IMG/VR virus record: IMGVR_UViG_3300010885_052266 | Coordinates: 1 to 64,000 of that record | Strand: one strand, 5' to 3' | DNA: 64,000 nucleotides | Source: a virus | In this document: positions 93-7,309 of the stretch, in pieces | Numbering within the stretch: position 1 is the first letter of the stretch | How the letters are laid out: each line of letters opens with the position of its first letter | The notes under the pieces: model-generated | Told to the model about the DNA's origin: nothing | Seen by the model: only the letters and a program-made list of their open reading frames with translations | Databases searched by the model: none | Made by a program: the position numbers and the translations under genes

Positions 93-1787
93 TTAGCGGG
101 CGTTCTTCCCGAGAAGGGCCGCCGCGATGGCCGCGATGGCCTCGATGTTGGACGGCATGCCTTCGGCAGGGGCAGGGGATTGCTCGCCAGCCTCGGCGGC
201 GCGCCTGGCCTTCTCCTCCGCGACTCTCTCCTGCTCGACCTGATACGGGCTTTTCAGCGTCCCGACCTCTACCCCCTTCTCCCTGAGCTGCGCCTCATAG
301 AAGCCGGCGATCCCGAACGTGTTGTTGACCAGACGGTCGAACGCCGAACTCGCCGCATCGACCTGGTCGTCGTGCCCGCCGGTCGGGAAGCTGGTCAGTT
401 CGGTCAGGAACGCCTCGTTCCAGTCGCCCTTCTGGATCCACACCATCTTGGCGCCCGCCCGTCCGGCCCATCCCATGGCGCGGGCCAGCTTGTCGCCAGT
501 CACCGGATCGGCATAGATCGAAAACCGGCTCAGGACGACCATAAGGCGTTGGGCCCACATCTTGCCTGCCGCACCCGGGTCCTGCGGTATCTGGATCGGC
601 ACCTGCGTCCCGTCCGCCTCGGCGCGTCGCAGCATGCGGTTCTCGACCTCGTGCGGCTCTTCCCGGAACCGCTCGGCGTGACCGATGATCCAGCGTTGCG
701 CCGATGGTGACCAACCCACCTTGACCGAAGCGGTGTAATCCGGATCGGATTTGATCAGCTTCTTCTCGGACCCGGCGAGGTCCCAGCCGCGAACCCATCG
801 CGTGTCGAACGGCGCCGTCTCGACGACCGGGAACCAGGAGCGTTTGAAGATACCGCCCTCGCGTGGCGAAGGCCTCTGTTGGAGCTGACCGGCTGCTGCG
901 TATATCCCCAGCCTCCCCTTGAGGCGATCCAGCTCCTTGCGAGGGACGTGAGCTGGCCAGAGCAGCTCGCCGGCCTCCTTACGGGGATCACGGAACCAAC
1001 GATGCGGGTGGTCCGGCTCGAATTCCGCCGGCAGGCAGAGATAGGTCCAGTCGTCGGACTCCTTGGACATGACGTGGCCGAGGAGGTCGCGCTCATGCAC
1101 ACGCTGCTGGATCAGGACATAGGCGCCGGTCTTCTGGTCGTTGAGGCGAGACGACATCGCCTCGTCCCACCACTCCAGCACCCTAGTCCGTTTCTTTTCT
1201 GACTCGGCCTCCAATACATTGTGCGGATCGTCAACAACTATGACGTCCGCCCCCTCTCCTGTCAGCATACCAGTAACCGACGTGGATAGTCTAAACCCGC
1301 TCTTGTCGTTGTCAAATCTGATCTTGGTGTTCTGATCCTCGGTCAGATTGTGCGAGTCGCCCCAACGCTTCCGGTACCAATCGCTGGCCAGGATGCGCCG
1401 GCACCGGACCGAGTCCCGGATCGACAGGGCATGGGCATAGGAGGCATAGAGGAACCGCCGCCAAGGGTGTTCAACCCAATCAAAAGCTGGCCACGTAACT
1501 GAAACTGAGACAGATTTCATATGACGAGGCGGCACCGCAATTGCGAGACGTTTTATGTGCCCCGCGCTGACTCCCATGAGATGGTCGCAGATCGCGTCGA
1601 TGTGCCAGTTCGACACGTAGGGCGTGCTGGCACCCTCGATCAGGTGCCAGGATAGAGGGATGAACTGGCTCAGGCCGTCCTGGGCGACGATGTGGCGATC
1701 CAGCTCAACGATAGCTCCGTCCGGATCGGAAAGCGCCCACGCGGAGAACTGGTCGAAGTCTGGGTCCGCGTGGGACGATTCGCTCAT
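93..1787 (-). CDS. terL: Terminase large subunit (TerL), intact
   Basis: This is the phage DNA-packaging motor: an ATPase fused to an RNase H-like nuclease that cuts concatemeric DNA and pumps it into the prohead. Visible motifs are a Walker A-like stretch PPRHMKS at residues 86-92 (lysine 91), a Walker B VIVVDD at 182-187, and a C-terminal nuclease with acidic residues in WDLA (Asp336) and HDDQVDA (Asp473, 474, 477). At 564 residues the length is normal for the family. The ATG overlaps the stop of the preceding tiny ORF as ATGA, indicating translational coupling. It is the last complete gene of the leftward packaging operon; transcription then leaves the window. A degenerate paralog lies upstream at 2330-3478. 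The tail after about residue 510 is Ala/Glu-rich. Confidence 0.93.
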   Translation of the reverse strand: MSESSHADPDFDQFSAWALSDPDGAIVELDRHIVAQDGLSQFIPLSWHLIEGASTPYVSNWHIDAICDHLMGVSAGHIKRLAIAVPPRHMKSVSVSVTWPAFDWVEHPWRRFLYASYAHALSIRDSVRCRRILASDWYRKRWGDSHNLTEDQNTKIRFDNDKSGFRLSTSVTGMLTGEGADVIVVDDPHNVLEAESEKKRTRVLEWWDEAMSSRLNDQKTGAYVLIQQRVHERDLLGHVMSKESDDWTYLCLPAEFEPDHPHRWFRDPRKEAGELLWPAHVPRKELDRLKGRLGIYAAAGQLQQRPSPREGGIFKRSWFPVVETAPFDTRWVRGWDLAGSEKKLIKSDPDYTASVKVGWSPSAQRWIIGHAERFREEPHEVENRMLRRAEADGTQVPIQIPQDPGAAGKMWAQRLMVVLSRFSIYADPVTGDKLARAMGWAGRAGAKMVWIQKGDWNEAFLTELTSFPTGGHDDQVDAASSAFDRLVNNTFGIAGFYEAQLREKGVEVGTLKSPYQVEQERVAEEKARRAAEAGEQSPAPAEGMPSNIEAIAAIAAALLGKNAR

Positions 1788-1861
1788 GTGGTCACGGAGA
1801 TTCCGAAGTATTCGTTCAGTCGGGAGATGGCGTCGACGACTGTCTGTTCGAGGTCAGTCAT
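1784..1861 (-). CDS. Tiny coupled ORF (25 aa) before TerL
   Basis: A 25-residue ORF whose ATG overlaps the end of the zinc-finger gene by 8 nt and whose stop overlaps the TerL start (ATGA), so it fills the gap in the coupled chain exactly. Its C-terminal part, LNEYFGIS, closely resembles LDEYFGIS in the C-terminal extension of the TerL paralog at 2330-3478. It may be a real micro-gene or mainly a coupling device that passes ribosomes to TerL. Nothing suggests a biochemical function. Confidence 0.42.
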   Translation of the reverse strand: MTDLEQTVVDAISRLNEYFGISVTT

Positions 1862-2195
1862 TGGCTTGGCCTCCCTGTTTCCCACAGTCCCGCCGACGCC
1901 TATTATACACCGCCGAGTAAGCTTTAATCTTCGCCTGCCCGCGCTCCGACTCCTTGTATCGTTTCGCTCCTGCCAAAGTAGCTTCACGCACGCGCGGGTC
2001 GCCTAAGCGTATCCGCAAGGTCTCTCGGTTACGCTCCTTTTGCCGCTCGTGTAAAACGGGGTTACTTTTGACGGCGGCGTCCAGTTTCGCCTTGCGCTTC
2101 TTCCGCAGCGAGGCTGAGCATGTCACCGAGCACGTCAGGGCTCGCCCATCGGTTTCGAAGGCCAAGCCGCAGATTATGCACGCCTTCTCAGCCAT
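1854..2195 (-). CDS. Small zinc-finger protein (113 aa)
   Basis: The chosen start (MAEKACIICG) has a strong GGAGG seven bases upstream; the longer reading frame is not needed. The N-terminus carries CIIC followed by CSVTC, a likely four-cysteine zinc site, then a long Arg/Lys-rich helical region that could bind nucleic acid. It overlaps the preceding 51-residue gene by 8 nt and the following 25-residue ORF by 8 nt. Small CxxC proteins are common next to phage terminases, but this one is not a recognised HNH nuclease: no His-Asn-His signature is visible. Confidence 0.72.
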   Translation of the reverse strand: MAEKACIICGLAFETDGRALTCSVTCSASLRKKRKAKLDAAVKSNPVLHERQKERNRETLRIRLGDPRVREATLAGAKRYKESERGQAKIKAYSAVYNRRRRDCGKQGGQAND

Positions 2196-2343
2196 GGCTC
2201 GTATCCTCCATTCTGGCCCTTCCGATCTTGCTGTCCGGCGACGCGAGATCGAAAACCACGAGGCGGCGGTGGGTGGCGCCGTGCTGGTCCAGGTAAGCAA
2301 GGACGCGTCGCTCTATCGGGCGAAGTGCTTCATGTTCCGCCAT
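2188..2343 (-). CDS. Small hypothetical protein, possible HTH (51 aa)
   Basis: Starts with ATG inside the last codons of the TerL paralog (14-nt overlap) and ends 8 nt into the zinc-finger gene. The stretch RPIERRVLAYLDQHGATHRR resembles the helical core of a small winged-helix protein. No good Shine-Dalgarno is visible, so translation probably depends on ribosomes terminating on the TerL paralog, which in turn suggests that paralog is translated to its end. Confidence 0.55.
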   Translation of the reverse strand: MAEHEALRPIERRVLAYLDQHGATHRRLVVFDLASPDSKIGRARMEDTSHG

Positions 2344-3478
2344 GCGACGCCGCGGCCGAGAGAGCGACCCACGCGATATGAGCCAACCGCTGTGGGCAGT
2401 CTTCATTCGGACAGTCCCTGGCGGGTTTGACCCCGTGATCACAGCCTGTCCCATACAGGCTCTCAGAGATTCCGAAGTATTCGTCCAGGCGAGCCAGGCC
2501 GGCGCGCAGGTCTGGCCGGTCCGCCTGGCGCTGAGGCTCAGCGCCGCATGTGCAGACGTCACCCAGATGCTCTCTGATCGCGCAGCCCGCGTGGTGATCG
2601 GGCACGCTCGCTGCCCTTACACCCTGAGGTGGCGAAGGCCTCTGTTGGAGCTGCGCGGCTGATGCTGCAGGCCCGAGAGCAGCCTTGAGAGTGTTGACAT
2701 CCTCCCGCGGGAAACGCTCAGGCCACAGCAGCTCGCCGGCCTCCTTGCGAGGATCCCGTATCCAGCGGTGCGGGTGGTCTGGCTCGAATTCCGCCGGCAG
2801 GCATAGATAGGTCCAGCCATTCGGCTCCTTCGCCATGACGTGCCCAATGAGATCGTCGTGGTGAGAGCGGGTCTGGACCACCACCATGGCGCCGTTCACC
2901 GGGTCAGCGAGGCGAGTGGTCATGACCTCGTCCCACCACTGCATCGCCTGGGTCCGCAGTTTGTCGGACCACACGTTGATGGGGTCGATCAAGGTGTCTC
3001 CGATCAGGAAGTCGCCCGCCTCTCCCGCGAGAGGGCTGCCAACCTCCACCGCTTTGAGAGAGCCTCCCTTGTCGTTCTTGTTCCCGAACGGGCCTGTAAG
3101 AGCGTGAGTATGACCCCAGCAAGCCCGGTATCCGTCGCTCTTCAGAAGCCTGCGGGCTGCCATCGCTGGAACGTAATCACGGTTGGAAGAGTAGGCCCGA
3201 ATGAACCGTCGCTCAGGATGCTTGATCCAGTCGTAGGCAGGCCACGCACCCCGGACCACGCTCGACAGGCCGTGCCGCGCCGGCACTGCAATCGCGAGAC
3301 GCTTGATGTGCCCGGCACTCACGCCGTCCAAGTGGTCGCAGATCGCGTCGATATGCCAAGGCGACAAATAAGATTCGAAAGCGCCAGCGACAAAAGGCCA
3401 GACGTGGGCGATGAACTCCTTCAATCCGTCTTTTGCGACGGTTGCCCGGACCTCCTCGATATACTCGTCCTCGGTCAT
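2330..3478 (-). CDS. TerL-like pseudo-ATPase with replaced C-terminus
   Basis: Residues 20-300 align throughout with the TerL at 93-1787 (shared WHIDAICDHL, SAGHIKRLAIAVP, WTYLCLPAEFEPDHPHRW, RDPRKEAGELLWP, QLQQRPSP), so this is a paralog. The Walker A lysine is gone (PARHGLS, Leu71), the Walker B is eroded (FLIGDT at 157-162), and the RNase H nuclease half is absent. After QLQQRPSP the protein switches to about 90 unrelated residues containing CTC and a LDEYFGIS motif shared with the ORF at 1784-1861. The start has a good AAGGGAAAGAG Shine-Dalgarno. It should not be able to hydrolyse ATP in the canonical way. It may be a decaying duplicate or a regulatory or structural partner of TerL; retention of an open frame and coupling to the next gene favour function. 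Confidence 0.8.
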   Translation of the reverse strand: MTEDEYIEEVRATVAKDGLKEFIAHVWPFVAGAFESYLSPWHIDAICDHLDGVSAGHIKRLAIAVPARHGLSSVVRGAWPAYDWIKHPERRFIRAYSSNRDYVPAMAARRLLKSDGYRACWGHTHALTGPFGNKNDKGGSLKAVEVGSPLAGEAGDFLIGDTLIDPINVWSDKLRTQAMQWWDEVMTTRLADPVNGAMVVVQTRSHHDDLIGHVMAKEPNGWTYLCLPAEFEPDHPHRWIRDPRKEAGELLWPERFPREDVNTLKAALGPAASAAQLQQRPSPPQGVRAASVPDHHAGCAIREHLGDVCTCGAEPQRQADRPDLRAGLARLDEYFGISESLYGTGCDHGVKPARDCPNEDCPQRLAHIAWVALSAAASHGGT

Positions 3479-3569
3479 GCTCTCTTTCCCTTCATCTTGC
3501 GTTGGTGTCGTGCAGAGGAGTCAGCCCCTCCAGCAGTCCCGTCATGGCCAACGCGGCGTCATTCACGCC

Positions 3570-3989
3570 TTAGCGATAGACGTCGTCGATTGGCTTCATC
3601 CGATCCTTTGTGCCCGCCCTCGTCAGCATTGTTAAGCTGACCCGTAACGAGCCGACCAACGGTCTGCCCAGGACGTTTGGGGGAAAAACCTCGACCTGCG
3701 CCAATCCTTCATTGATGATTTTCTCAGTGAGGCGAGCCGTCGTTGCCGCCACTATCCTTGGTATGAGCGCCTCAGAACCGGCACGACTGGACTGCAACAA
3801 GGTCAGGTCGTACGTCGCCGTTTCCGCCATGACGACCGCTTCAAGCCGATTGCATTCCGGACACGGATACTGGCGCCGCGCGACCGTGAGGGAGGCCCTT
3901 GGGTCGTATGCCTTGGCGGTCACCCGTTCGCGGGGATACAGGAAGATAAAGCCCGTGCCACCGCAGATGTCGCAGTCGTCTCGTGCCAT
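3570..3989 (-). CDS. Zinc-ribbon-like hypothetical protein (139 aa)
   Basis: The start is placed at MARDDCDICGG, where the ATG overlaps the stop of the preceding 73-residue gene as ATGA and GAAGG lies upstream. Two cysteine pairs, CDICGGTG near residue 6 and CPEC about 40 residues later, resemble the zinc ribbon of DnaJ-type CxxCxGxG proteins. The rest has no recognisable motif. It sits in the coupled chain between the DUF1643 gene and the TerL paralog. Function unknown. Confidence 0.7.
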   Translation of the reverse strand: MARDDCDICGGTGFIFLYPRERVTAKAYDPRASLTVARRQYPCPECNRLEAVVMAETATYDLTLLQSSRAGSEALIPRIVAATTARLTEKIINEGLAQVEVFPPNVLGRPLVGSLRVSLTMLTRAGTKDRMKPIDDVYR

Positions 3990-4210
3990 CACACCTTCAC
4001 TCCTGCCACGCGGACTTTTCCCGCATCGGTCAACACCACGTTCGCGAAGTCGCGCGTCTCGCCCCACACCAGGCGCACAACTCCCTCGCTCTGCCACACG
4101 GCGATTTGCCTCCACCACAGGCTGCCCGCCGGCACGGATCGCTCGGTCGCAAAGTAGGCGAGCGTCACAGGCTTTCGCTCCGCCAAGGATTGCGGCCTGC
4201 TCCGCCTCAT
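3989..4210 (-). CDS. Hypothetical protein (73 aa)
   Basis: A short protein starting MRRSRPQ, with its ATG overlapping the DUF1643 stop (ATGA) and its own stop overlapping the next gene (ATGA). The longer same-frame reading upstream is only a shadow of the DUF1643 gene. It contains WWRQIAVW and ends in a beta-rich segment. I do not recognise the family. Confidence 0.65.
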   Translation of the reverse strand: MRRSRPQSLAERKPVTLAYFATERSVPAGSLWWRQIAVWQSEGVVRLVWGETRDFANVVLTDAGKVRVAGVKV

Positions 4211-4773
4211 GGCTGAAACGCCACGAACGGGGTGTCGTATCCGATCCTGCTGGAATGCTTGGGCCACCCCGACTTTGTCAGGCCCAGGCAGAGCAACGGG
4301 AATCCCCAGCGGCGCAGCTGGACGAACAGTTCGCGCGCATGCTGCTCCAGCACCGGCGGAACCTGACCTGTCGCCACAATGATCTTCGTAGCCTTGGCGG
4401 CGAAGCTGGCGATAAAGAAGGTGTTTTCGACGTGCTGAACCTCGTCCGCTGCCTCCAGGTCGCCGGGGTTGGTGGCGCGATACGTGCCGACGTTGACCTT
4501 CACATAACGCGTCAGGCCCAGCGTGGTCCTGGTCCAGGTGTATTCCTTGCGCACGGTCAGATCGTCCTCGGTCTCGCTCGCGGCGGATGGGTTCATGCCG
4601 ATCCACAGCGCGAAGGGGAGATCGTCGGGAAGGACCTCGCGATCGCTGTCCCAGACCCGTTCGAGCCACAGAAGATGCTCCTGGCGCTCGCCCGCAAAGC
4701 TGGCCGATCCCCGGACGCCGGGCAGCATGGGCCAAGGCCGCGCGCCGGCCTCGTGTGTCGTGGTTGCGCTCAT
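4207..4773 (-). CDS. DUF1643 family protein
   Basis: This 188-residue protein shows the hallmarks of DUF1643: a central WIGMNPSAASETEDD motif, then a YVKVNVGTYRATNP region, and a late LFVQLRRWGFPLLCLGLTKSGWPKH stretch (shown in part; the key elements are GLTK and GWPKHP-like). The family is common on phages and in restriction-linked loci; its biochemical role is unknown. The start at 4773 has GGACGGAAA upstream. It belongs to the leftward terminase operon. Confidence 0.82.
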   Translation of the reverse strand: MSATTTHEAGARPWPMLPGVRGSASFAGERQEHLLWLERVWDSDREVLPDDLPFALWIGMNPSAASETEDDLTVRKEYTWTRTTLGLTRYVKVNVGTYRATNPGDLEAADEVQHVENTFFIASFAAKATKIIVATGQVPPVLEQHARELFVQLRRWGFPLLCLGLTKSGWPKHSSRIGYDTPFVAFQP

Positions 4774-4791
4774 GGTGACTTTCCGTCCATT

Positions 4792-4866
4792 TTACGCCGC
4801 GTTCATCGCGGCGACTGTTACGCGCTCCAGTTCTTCGAAGACGTAGAGTGTAGTCGAGCTATTCAT
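4792..4866 (-). CDS. Tiny coupled ORF (24 aa)
   Basis: A 24-residue ORF (MNSSTTLYVFEELERV...) with ATGA overlap to the 101-residue gene upstream and GGGGACGGA in front. It ends 18 nt before the DUF1643 start. Positioning supports translation, but the protein is too short to classify. Confidence 0.4.
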   Translation of the reverse strand: MNSSTTLYVFEELERVTVAAMNAA

Positions 4867-5168
4867 GGTGATTCCGTCCCCTGCATCGCGGATAGCTCCA
4901 GGCGGCCCAGCTCGGTGATGTGCCAGCCGCGTATCGTCTCGGTCACCAGCCTGGGGACAAGCCAACCCTCCGCCTCCATGGCGCGCACCGCGGGCCTGAC
5001 GCCCCAGTCCCACAGGCCTATTTCGGTCGAGGCGCTGAGCAGCGCGGCACGCAGCTCGTCGACGTCGAACGACATTGGGTCCAGGTCCGGCGGTGCGGTG
5101 CCGGACGAGCGGGCCGGGCCGCCGAACAGGCCTCCGATGTGGTCGTAGTCTCGGTGCGACCCGCTCAT
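4863..5168 (-). CDS. Hypothetical protein, possible winged helix (101 aa)
   Basis: Both ends overlap neighbours by ATGA. The middle (DELRAALLSASTEIGLWDWG, then VRAMEAEGWLV) and the end (WHITELGRLEL) resemble small winged-helix proteins whose last strand reads TxLGRxxL. No catalytic residues are visible. It probably acts in regulation or is an accessory to packaging, but this is a guess from shape only. Confidence 0.65.
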   Translation of the reverse strand: MSGSHRDYDHIGGLFGGPARSSGTAPPDLDPMSFDVDELRAALLSASTEIGLWDWGVRPAVRAMEAEGWLVPRLVTETIRGWHITELGRLELSAMQGTESP

Positions 5169-5509
5169 GTGGCAGCCTTCGCCACGTCTACCGCGTCGGC
5201 GCGGAGGTCCTCCCAGATTTCCTGGCTGTCAGAGCCTTCAGCTTTGATGCAGACGTGGCCGTTGGTCAGGGTTACGGCCATATGGCGGCGCCTTCTGCCT
5301 TCGCGGATGCTCATGCTGACGACCGTCCAACCCGCGAGGTCTGGATGAGCCCACGGCACATCGCCCGATGCCTCCTTTGCTTCCAATTGTCTGGCGACAT
5401 CGGCGAACTCAGGGGCCGTCGGATCAACATACGGATGTCCGCAAAACTCCCATTTCAGGGCGACCGTCTGATCTTCGACGTACTTATTTACCTCATCTGA
5501 TCTGCTCAT
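5165..5509 (-). CDS. Hypothetical protein (114 aa)
   Basis: Start chosen at MSRSDEVNKYVEDQ, where ATGA overlaps the previous gene; the upstream in-frame extension is a shadow of that gene. The C-terminus ends in ADAVDVAKAAT, almost the same as the last residues of the neighbouring 80-residue protein (ADAVDVAKDAL), and the DNA under it is also nearly identical. Otherwise unrecognised. Confidence 0.65.
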   Translation of the reverse strand: MSRSDEVNKYVEDQTVALKWEFCGHPYVDPTAPEFADVARQLEAKEASGDVPWAHPDLAGWTVVSMSIREGRRRRHMAVTLTNGHVCIKAEGSDSQEIWEDLRADAVDVAKAAT

Positions 5510-5748
5510 AGAGCATCCTTCGCGACGTCTACCGCGTCGGCCTCCAGCTTCGCCGCGCGCATGCCGGCGAGGAATCCTGCCTGCCACGTGAATTTGGCGA
5601 ATTCAGGGATGCCGTGGGCCTCCCCCCACGCGACAAGGTCCGCCGGGCACTCTCGCACTGCCAGCAGGCATGCCCGGAGGCGTGCTGCCATCGCATCCTC
5701 TCGCCTCTGCGCTCTGGCGAGAACGAGGGTCTCTTCCTGGCTGCTCAT
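5506..5748 (-). CDS. Hypothetical protein (80 aa)
   Basis: A helical, Ala-rich protein with the segment FTWQAGFLAGMRAAKLEADA, in which the AGxxAG spacing is typical of small phage proteins that carry aromatic-glycine helices. Both ends are coupled by ATGA overlaps. Its last dozen residues repeat those of the next gene. Confidence 0.65.
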   Translation of the reverse strand: MSSQEETLVLARAQRREDAMAARLRACLLAVRECPADLVAWGEAHGIPEFAKFTWQAGFLAGMRAAKLEADAVDVAKDAL

Positions 5749-6107
5749 CGCTTCCCCGACGTCGCACGGAACGCGTCCAGGTTGGCGATCGAGGCCTTGG
5801 CCTCATCCAGGGCCAGACGCCGCAGCCCCTCCGCTGCACCGCCTGGATGACTGCGCGCGTCCCAGGTCAACGCGTCCCAGGTCAGGCCGACGGCCCACTC
5901 CGGGGCTTTCGGGTTCTGCGTCCACACGGTCCAGATCGTGGCGGCCACGACCTCTGCCTCGGCTTCGAGGCGGTGCGCCGCGATGATCTCCGCCTGACGG
6001 GCATCGTTGACGGACATCTCGCCGGCGCTGATCGCGTCGAGGCGGGATGCTTGGGTGGCCATGCTCATGGTGCCGAGCGCGGCCATGGGGTCACTGGCCA
6101 CGCTCAT
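5745..6107 (-). CDS. Hypothetical protein (120 aa)
   Basis: Start at MSVASDPMAALG, with GGAG about ten bases upstream and ATGA overlap to the 36-residue gene before it. The longer frame to 6365 is not supported. The protein is mostly helical (AGEMSVNDARQAEIIAAHRLEAEAEVVA is one predicted helix, given in outline) and has no recognisable motif. Confidence 0.62.
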   Translation of the reverse strand: MSVASDPMAALGTMSMATQASRLDAISAGEMSVNDARQAEIIAAHRLEAEAEVVAATIWTVWTQNPKAPEWAVGLTWDALTWDARSHPGGAAEGLRRLALDEAKASIANLDAFRATSGKR

Positions 6108-6214
6108 GCCGCCATCGCTCCGGTGAAGTTCGCCTCGGGCGCCGGCCGCACATTCGCCCGCACCACCGCAGCGGCATGGCCTGGACAAACCGAGTTGCCG
6201 ATCCGCCTGATCAT
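6104..6214 (-). CDS. Mini-gene resembling motif X of cytosine methylases (36 aa)
   Basis: A 36-residue ORF starting MIRRIGNSVCPGHAAAVVRA. This matches the C-terminal motif X of C5-cytosine DNA methyltransferases (pattern xRxIGNxVxPxxAxAxxxx) and nothing else of the enzyme: no PCQ or ENV motif lies nearby on either strand. Its ATG overlaps the stop of the 65-residue gene and its stop overlaps the start of the next gene, both as ATGA, so it is in the translated chain. It is probably the remnant of a methylase gene kept in frame. An independent function is possible but unproven. Confidence 0.6.
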   Translation of the reverse strand: MIRRIGNSVCPGHAAAVVRANVRPAPEANFTGAMAA

Positions 6215-6408
6215 TTCTGCACCTTTGTGCCAACGAACCGCCCGTTCGGCGCGCCGCGAGAGGCAAGTTCGCGATCGACGTAAATCGCCACGTCAAGAAT
6301 GGCCTCCCATCGCGCCAACCAATACCGGTCCCGATCCCACACGACTGAGTGCCAGTGTCGCTCAACCCGACAGAACTTCACGCTGAACTTCGCGCCTCGG
6401 TACTGCAT
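6211..6408 (-). CDS. Hypothetical protein (65 aa)
   Basis: Starts one base after the TerS stop and overlaps the next mini-gene by ATGA. It is rich in Trp, Arg and Val (VERHWHSVVWDRDRYWLARW) and looks like a small mixed alpha/beta protein. No known family. Confidence 0.6.
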   Translation of the reverse strand: MQYRGAKFSVKFCRVERHWHSVVWDRDRYWLARWEAILDVAIYVDRELASRGAPNGRFVGTKVQK

Positions 6409-6409
6409 G

Positions 6410-7309
6410 CTACGCCTCCTGGCCGGTCTGCTGGCGTCGCGCGGCTCGGCTGGCCTCGGCCAACAGCTCGCGCATCTTCCAGGCCGATTTCGTGTCGAGA
6501 CTCTTCAGCACCTTCCCCGGACTGCTGGGATCGGCGGCTGGCCCGGTGTTGTTGGTGATGACGACCCCGACCCCGACCTTCGTCTTCTCCGGGGTGGCGA
6601 TCCCCAAGACCTGGCGCTCTAGGCCGATGCCCTTGGACAGGATGTCGCATGCCGCCTTCAGCAGTCCGGCCAGCGTCTCTCGATCCGGATTGACCCCGCA
6701 CAGGTTCATCACAGCCTGCTGCTTGAGTGCGAGGGTCACGCCATCTGTCGTGTTGGCCGGCACTGTCGCGGCCATGATCAGGCGCAGGATGCCAGTGCCG
6801 ACCTGCTGCATCTCGCCGGCACGAGTGAGCTGCGCCCTGATGCGATCGGCATGGATGCCCGCCATCTGCACCACCACGGCGTCGCGCCGGCTTTCGAGGT
6901 CTTCGACGCTGGGCACCATACCCGACCGGCCCACATCCGCGGCCCGGACGTGTTCAGCCTCATCGGAGGCTGGCTCAGGCGCGGGATCAGACTCCGGCAC
7001 CGGGTCATAGATCCTCATCTCTTGGATCGCCTGAACAACTGCCGGATCAGGCTCAGGCTCGGGAGCTGGGGCCTGAGCCTCCTGCTCCCGCCTGATGTCG
7101 GCCACGATTTGCTCGGCGGCTGCCACAGAGATCAGCTCGTCGACCTGCTTCTTCCATCCCTCTTTCGCCTTCCGGCGATTGATCGTCGTTCTGGACGCAA
7201 AGCCGTATTTCTTTTGCAGGCTTGGGACGCCGATGGGCGTCGTCTCGTAGAGGCGCCTGATCTCATCCCAGGGTGGCAATTCGACTTTGCCTTGCAGCGT
7301 CCTAGGCAT
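6410..7309 (-). CDS. terS: Terminase small subunit-like protein
   Basis: A 299-residue protein with an N-terminal helix-turn-helix (WDEIRRLYETTPIGVPSLQK, then TINRRKAKEGWKK) of the kind used by small terminases to recognise packaging sites. A Pro/Glu-rich linker follows at about 80-130, and then a long helical oligomerisation region. It is the first gene of the leftward cluster that ends with TerL, the usual order. The upstream 237 bp have no gene and should carry the promoter. Assignment rests on the HTH, length and position; a general HTH regulator is the alternative. Confidence 0.72.
   Translation of the reverse strand: MPRTLQGKVELPPWDEIRRLYETTPIGVPSLQKKYGFASRTTINRRKAKEGWKKQVDELISVAAAEQIVADIRREQEAQAPAPEPEPDPAVVQAIQEMRIYDPVPESDPAPEPASDEAEHVRAADVGRSGMVPSVEDLESRRDAVVVQMAGIHADRIRAQLTRAGEMQQVGTGILRLIMAATVPANTTDGVTLALKQQAVMNLCGVNPDRETLAGLLKAACDILSKGIGLERQVLGIATPEKTKVGVGVVITNNTGPAADPSSPGKVLKSLDTKSAWKMRELLAEASRAARRQQTGQEA

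Follow-up and report, generated by a model that had tools for sequence, protein, structure and literature searches.

The question raised by this locus is whether a second gene related to the large terminase subunit (TerL), encoded between terS and an intact terL, still gives rise to a useful protein or is the remains of one. The window analyzed here comprises 64,000 bases (1–64,000) of a 100,879-base IMG/VR virus record. The genuine TerL (P0002; 564 aa; 1787–93, strand −) has intact ATPase and nuclease domains, and matched the PHROG 38 profile at 2.9e-81 and Terminase_6C at 7.7e-12. In the whole record, the only second TerL-like stretch was the ORF at 3478–2330 on strand − (P0001, hereafter the paralogue), which starts with ATG and encodes 382 aa with no internal stop. 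A probable TerS (7309–6410, strand −) was recognized by a weak match to PHROG 1206 (1.6e-5). Structural genes, including that for the portal, share this strand and occupy the far end of the record.

The order of genes along strand − is tight. The stop of the paralogue lies in an overlap of 14 nt with a 51-aa HTH-like ORF (2343–2188, strand −), which is followed by a 113-aa treble-clef ORF (1854..2195, strand −) with a weak likeness to DUF2116 and its own Shine-Dalgarno sequence, by a 25-aa leader ORF (1784..1861, strand −) that overlaps the TerL start codon, and by TerL itself. The original prediction had credited the paralogue with a good ribosome site and with coupling to the next gene. The purine stretch AAGGGAAAGAGAGC-ATG indeed represents a plausible site, although not a strong consensus one, and translational coupling of the 51-aa ORF to the paralogue is plausible from their overlap and from the lack of a Shine-Dalgarno sequence proper to this ORF.

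The terS–terL interval (window positions 1787–6410) is unusually long and packed with small ORFs, among them a DUF1643 protein at 4207–4773 as well as the treble-clef and HTH ORFs, and it may constitute an accessory-gene slot. PADLOC, run on seven proteins of this region, matched no known defence gene. A near-perfect 26-bp direct repeat (24/26) containing GAATACTTCGGAATC was also observed at window positions 1797–1822 and 2466–2491. It is translated as RLNEYFGIS in the TerL leader ORF and as RLDEYFGIS in the paralogue tail, and may be either a DNA site or a shared peptide. Its 15-mer pattern, with an expected count of 0.02, has no third copy in the window.

Catalytic residues and domains of the paralogue

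As originally proposed, the paralogue keeps the TerL scaffold. Its residues 6–286 (2621..3463, strand −) aligned with residues 26–311 of TerL at 54% identity, and a match to PHROG 38 (8.8e-37) covered residues 16–286 only. The alterations described for the two nucleotide-binding motifs were also borne out. At the former Walker A (3263..3286, strand −), VPPRHMKS in TerL corresponds to VPARHGLS in the paralogue, with the lysine (K91) replaced by Leu71 (CTG), and at the former Walker B (2990..3010, strand −) VIVVDDP corresponds to FLIGDTL, in which the first Asp stays and the second, catalytic one is replaced by Thr162. In the comparison of 211 TerL loci, the Walker A lysine was present in 210 out of 210 relatives and the Walker B Asp pair (DD) in 208 out of 208.

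Losses in the ATPase core went beyond those originally listed, with R124, D125, R166, T176, N216 and Q228 of TerL also being replaced. In a 65-row family alignment, the paralogue was off consensus in 33 of 99 highly conserved columns, mostly within residues 64–163, and it kept 24 of 34 near-invariant residues. The Walker A lysine and the catalytic aspartate of Walker B are among the ten lost (P87, K91, V97, R124, D125, R166, T176, D187, N216 and Q228, numbered as in TerL); judging from their position, R166 or Q228 might act as arginine finger or sensor.

The nuclease domain is missing as well, in agreement with the original prediction: Terminase_6C gave no match, and homology to TerL ends at residue 286. 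No convincing nuclease remnant was detected between the breakpoint and TerL (2700–1781), where the best match (E 0.011 over 22 residues, at low stringency) was taken as chance. The domain is replaced by a new, unrelated C-terminus of 96 residues that begins after the homology end at nt 2621 (2330..2620, strand −; 96 aa plus stop). This Cys/His-rich tail resembles a Cys/His-rich small protein, and its synonymous codon bias gave no clear coding signal. Neither a search of the tail against viral contigs and phages nor a search of the whole paralogue against viral contigs retrieved relatives of the tail, and the latter search retrieved none of the paralogue either. Compared with active TerL proteins, the paralogue is therefore deficient in the Walker A lysine, the Walker B catalytic acid and the RNase H-like nuclease, and its sequence supports its classification as a catalytically inactivated TerL copy.

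The fold itself is predicted to have been retained. In the AlphaFold model, residues 1–280 mostly showed pLDDT values above 90 and adopted a confident TerL ATPase fold, a confidence that owes much to the live TerLs in the underlying alignment, and the tail remained below 50. The leading PDB matches to the model were TerLs, the first being PhiV-1 TerL bound to Avs3 (8dgc).

Distribution among relatives and origin

The combination of paralogue and TerL is known from one genome only. Neither 81 whole records nor the surroundings of the 211 TerL loci yielded another copy of the ATPase domain, these being sets from which very close records may be absent. A degenerate DNA pattern for VPARHGLS matched five contigs, none with a TerL at that place. 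The nearest relative sharing both TerL and portal (G002) had no such second gene. The record of locus L004, the nearest relative found, also shares the portal gene (53%), and the terS–terL intervals of L003 and L004 are short (HTH and small membrane ORFs) and devoid of a second TerL. A search of open-access papers found split and tandem large terminases, and no case of an intact TerL accompanied by a dead paralogue.

Other unusual TerL arrangements were observed among the loci compared. In L031 (6351–9113), and at the same place in L032, TerL is interrupted in frame by an intein (Pfam Intein_splicing) inserted exactly at Walker B. In L240, from a Capsulimonadaceae MAG, a separate stretch resembling a TerL nuclease domain (2465–2929) lies approximately 3 kb from a full TerL. 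The TerL homologue of L016 (1961–3427) contains one in-frame TAG, possibly a stop-codon reassignment, an error or a break.

Regarding the paralogue itself, the completeness of the resident TerL ruled out an origin by splitting, from an intron or from an intein. Descent of the core from another TerL subfamily found no support, its closest phage match being CRP-901, a member of the same family. In the tree built from residues 6–286, the paralogue was the sister of the resident TerL (99/95), L003 and L004 being next closest. Its end branch was six-fold longer than that of TerL (1.61 vs. 0.27). Residues 6–170 again placed the pair together (split 99/93), and the core alone gave weak support (86/47) and a very long branch.

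Just before the homology end, 25 nt of the paralogue (2629..2653, strand −) are identical to TerL positions 863–887. Within residues 222–286, amino acids identical between paralogue and TerL share the codon in 71% of cases, compared with a synonymous identity of 36–44% for the same stretch against L003 and L004, and of about 0.4 for most other pairs. In the core, synonymous identity between paralogue and TerL was 49%, near the level of other pairs. Because of the identical bases and the raised 3′ synonymous identity, we propose a late recombination with the resident TerL; these sequence traces point to an event in the 3′ part that would postdate the divergence of the core. The resident TerL looks mosaic too, with a core nearest to L070 and a 3′ portion nearest to L004 and L003. 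Given the position in the tree and this mosaicism, a tandem duplicate would fit the paralogue, and so would a close xenologue that underwent recombination with the resident copy at a later time.

The identical bases near the breakpoint and the 3′ synonymous identity of 0.71 would also suit a copy that persists as a sequence reservoir by recombining with TerL, supplying or receiving segments. We consider this very improbable, however, as the TerL core, closest to L070, shows no input from the copy, and core input of this kind would kill the motor.

Selection on the paralogue

The original prediction had also offered the alternative of a recent pseudogene with a frame not yet lost, and had named ratios near neutrality as evidence against a functional copy. 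When the paralogue branch was given its own omega in a codon model, omega = 1 was rejected (2dlnL 27.5, all 281 codons), as it was by part, with 2dlnL values of 13.1 for residues 67–170 (core) and 5.2 for residues 171–286. Only this test against omega = 1 was used, the fitted foreground omega being unreliable owing to saturation and to a branch length at its bound. Synonymous sites in the core were near saturation, yet the frame is open. In neutral simulations run to the observed divergence, 3–5 stops were expected in the homologous part, and the zero stops observed there had a P of 0.03–0.005 under neutrality; for the core alone, absence of stops occurred in 11% of simulations.

In all parts of the paralogue, retention was higher at conserved than at variable sites. 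Over the whole homologous part, 64/89 family-conserved sites were kept vs. 53/133 variable ones (p=2e-6). The N-terminal flank kept 17/18 conserved and 19/39 variable sites, with no raised synonymous identity, and in the ATPase core the excess was weak (15/35 vs. 9/41, p=0.044), hydrophobic core positions being kept only in part (24/40). Conserved positions were thus far better kept in the flanks (49/54) than in the core (15/35; p=1.5e-6), with the reservation that part of the 3′ conservation may stem from recombination with TerL.

Stops, frameshifts and an even loss of conserved sites, the marks of a pseudogene, were not found in the paralogue. An open frame despite strong divergence, the rejection of a neutral branch and the concentration of losses in the core all disfavour a recent pseudogene, which is unlikely. 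As read from its codons, the copy shows past purifying selection for most of its history. The ATPase core appears to have been specifically released from constraint, perhaps late, and the selection read from this one genome may predate the loss of catalysis.

A decaying relic is the most serious competitor, and we hold it to be possible, if doubtful. A TerL gained by duplication or acquisition would have been truncated and fused to a downstream stretch, its ATPase core being free to drift ever since, and the frame would have stayed open either fortuitously or through a requirement of the overlapping 51-aa ORF for translation across the paralogue. The nearly unconstrained core, the tail with neither relatives nor a clear coding signal and the restriction to a single genome are consistent with this, as is the mosaic appearance of TerLs in the family, in which fragments may arise often. 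On the other hand, a relic has to be reconciled with the lack of stops and frameshifts despite heavy divergence, with the rejection of neutrality even for the core alone, and with an N-terminal flank that retains all but one of its 18 conserved sites at ordinary synonymous identity.

Proposed role and comparison with known systems

Our preferred reading, to which we assign a probability of roughly 0.4, is that of a lineage-specific TerL paralogue turned pseudoenzyme and kept as a binding module for terminase partners; its protein would presumably be made and still useful. ATP binding, hydrolysis and nuclease activity would have been lost, with the ATPase fold retained for binding. The paralogue would bind a partner common to TerL, that is, TerL itself, TerS or the portal, and as a non-hydrolysing subunit it would slow or gate terminase assembly or packaging, with the Cys/His tail adding a new contact. 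Entry into the ring of TerL subunits or service as a packaging checkpoint, the two roles suggested in the original prediction, are possible.

A module confined to binding was preferred over a relic, a decoy or a reservoir because the predicted fold is kept, because ATPase-dead subunits are compatible with a working T4 motor, which then packages more slowly and pauses more (PMC8589836), and because of the genomic slot and the Avs context: in Pseudomonas phage JBD26, the terS–terL slot carries accessory genes, both defence and anti-defence (PMC10884400), and Avs1–4 sense TerL or portal (PMC12931631). The JBD26 slot and Avs sensing would also favour a decoy, in which a TerL look-alike titrates TerL-recognising defences (Avs1–3) by binding without triggering them, and so would the TerL held by Avs3 (8dgc) as the best solved-structure match. 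Nevertheless, 8dgc is just one of the solved TerLs, and PADLOC found no known defence gene among the neighbours tested; we regard a decoy as improbable. Equally slim are the chances of a broader version, in which a dead TerL would act as decoy or poison by occupying host TerL-sensing receptors or entering the terminase of competing phages, the native TerL being adapted to it.

If the paralogue is indeed a pseudoenzyme kept for binding, it would be a natural, genome-encoded dead subunit, implying that a pseudoenzyme can serve phages to tune or protect the motor, and it would offer a ready-made tool for studies of subunit coordination or of TerL-sensing immunity.

Compared with known systems, the paralogue shares with TerLs of the PHROG 38 / psiM2 ORF9 (TIGR01630) type the ATPase-domain fold, the N-terminal WHIDAICDHL block and the GELLWP...QLQQRPSP block. 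It differs from them in lacking the Walker A lysine and the catalytic Asp, further residues of the core and the entire nuclease domain. The gp16 protein of phi29-type phages (PMC7672431) is likewise a packaging ATPase whose nuclease function was lost, with a vestigial domain; however, gp16 has ATPase activity and is the sole motor of its phage, whereas here the ATPase would be dead and stands beside a full TerL. Two terL-like ORFs per genome, as here, are described for the Xanthomonas jumbo phages XaC1/XbC2 (PMC11273794) and for phiPDS1 (PMC10773633). Those of phiPDS1 are two halves of one TerL, in contrast to one complete and one catalytically dead gene in our case, and for XaC1/XbC2 the tandem alone is reported. 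The artificial T4 gp17 hetero-pentamers with dead subunits (PMC8589836) provide a model for modulation of a motor by a dead subunit, although those subunits are laboratory mutants that keep both domains, and the paralogue is natural and lacks the nuclease domain. Packaging motors in the cited papers contain one kind of ATPase subunit each. Judged by its sequence, the paralogue would belong to a known kind, the pseudoenzymes, and a dead TerL copy beside an intact TerL would be a new form of it.
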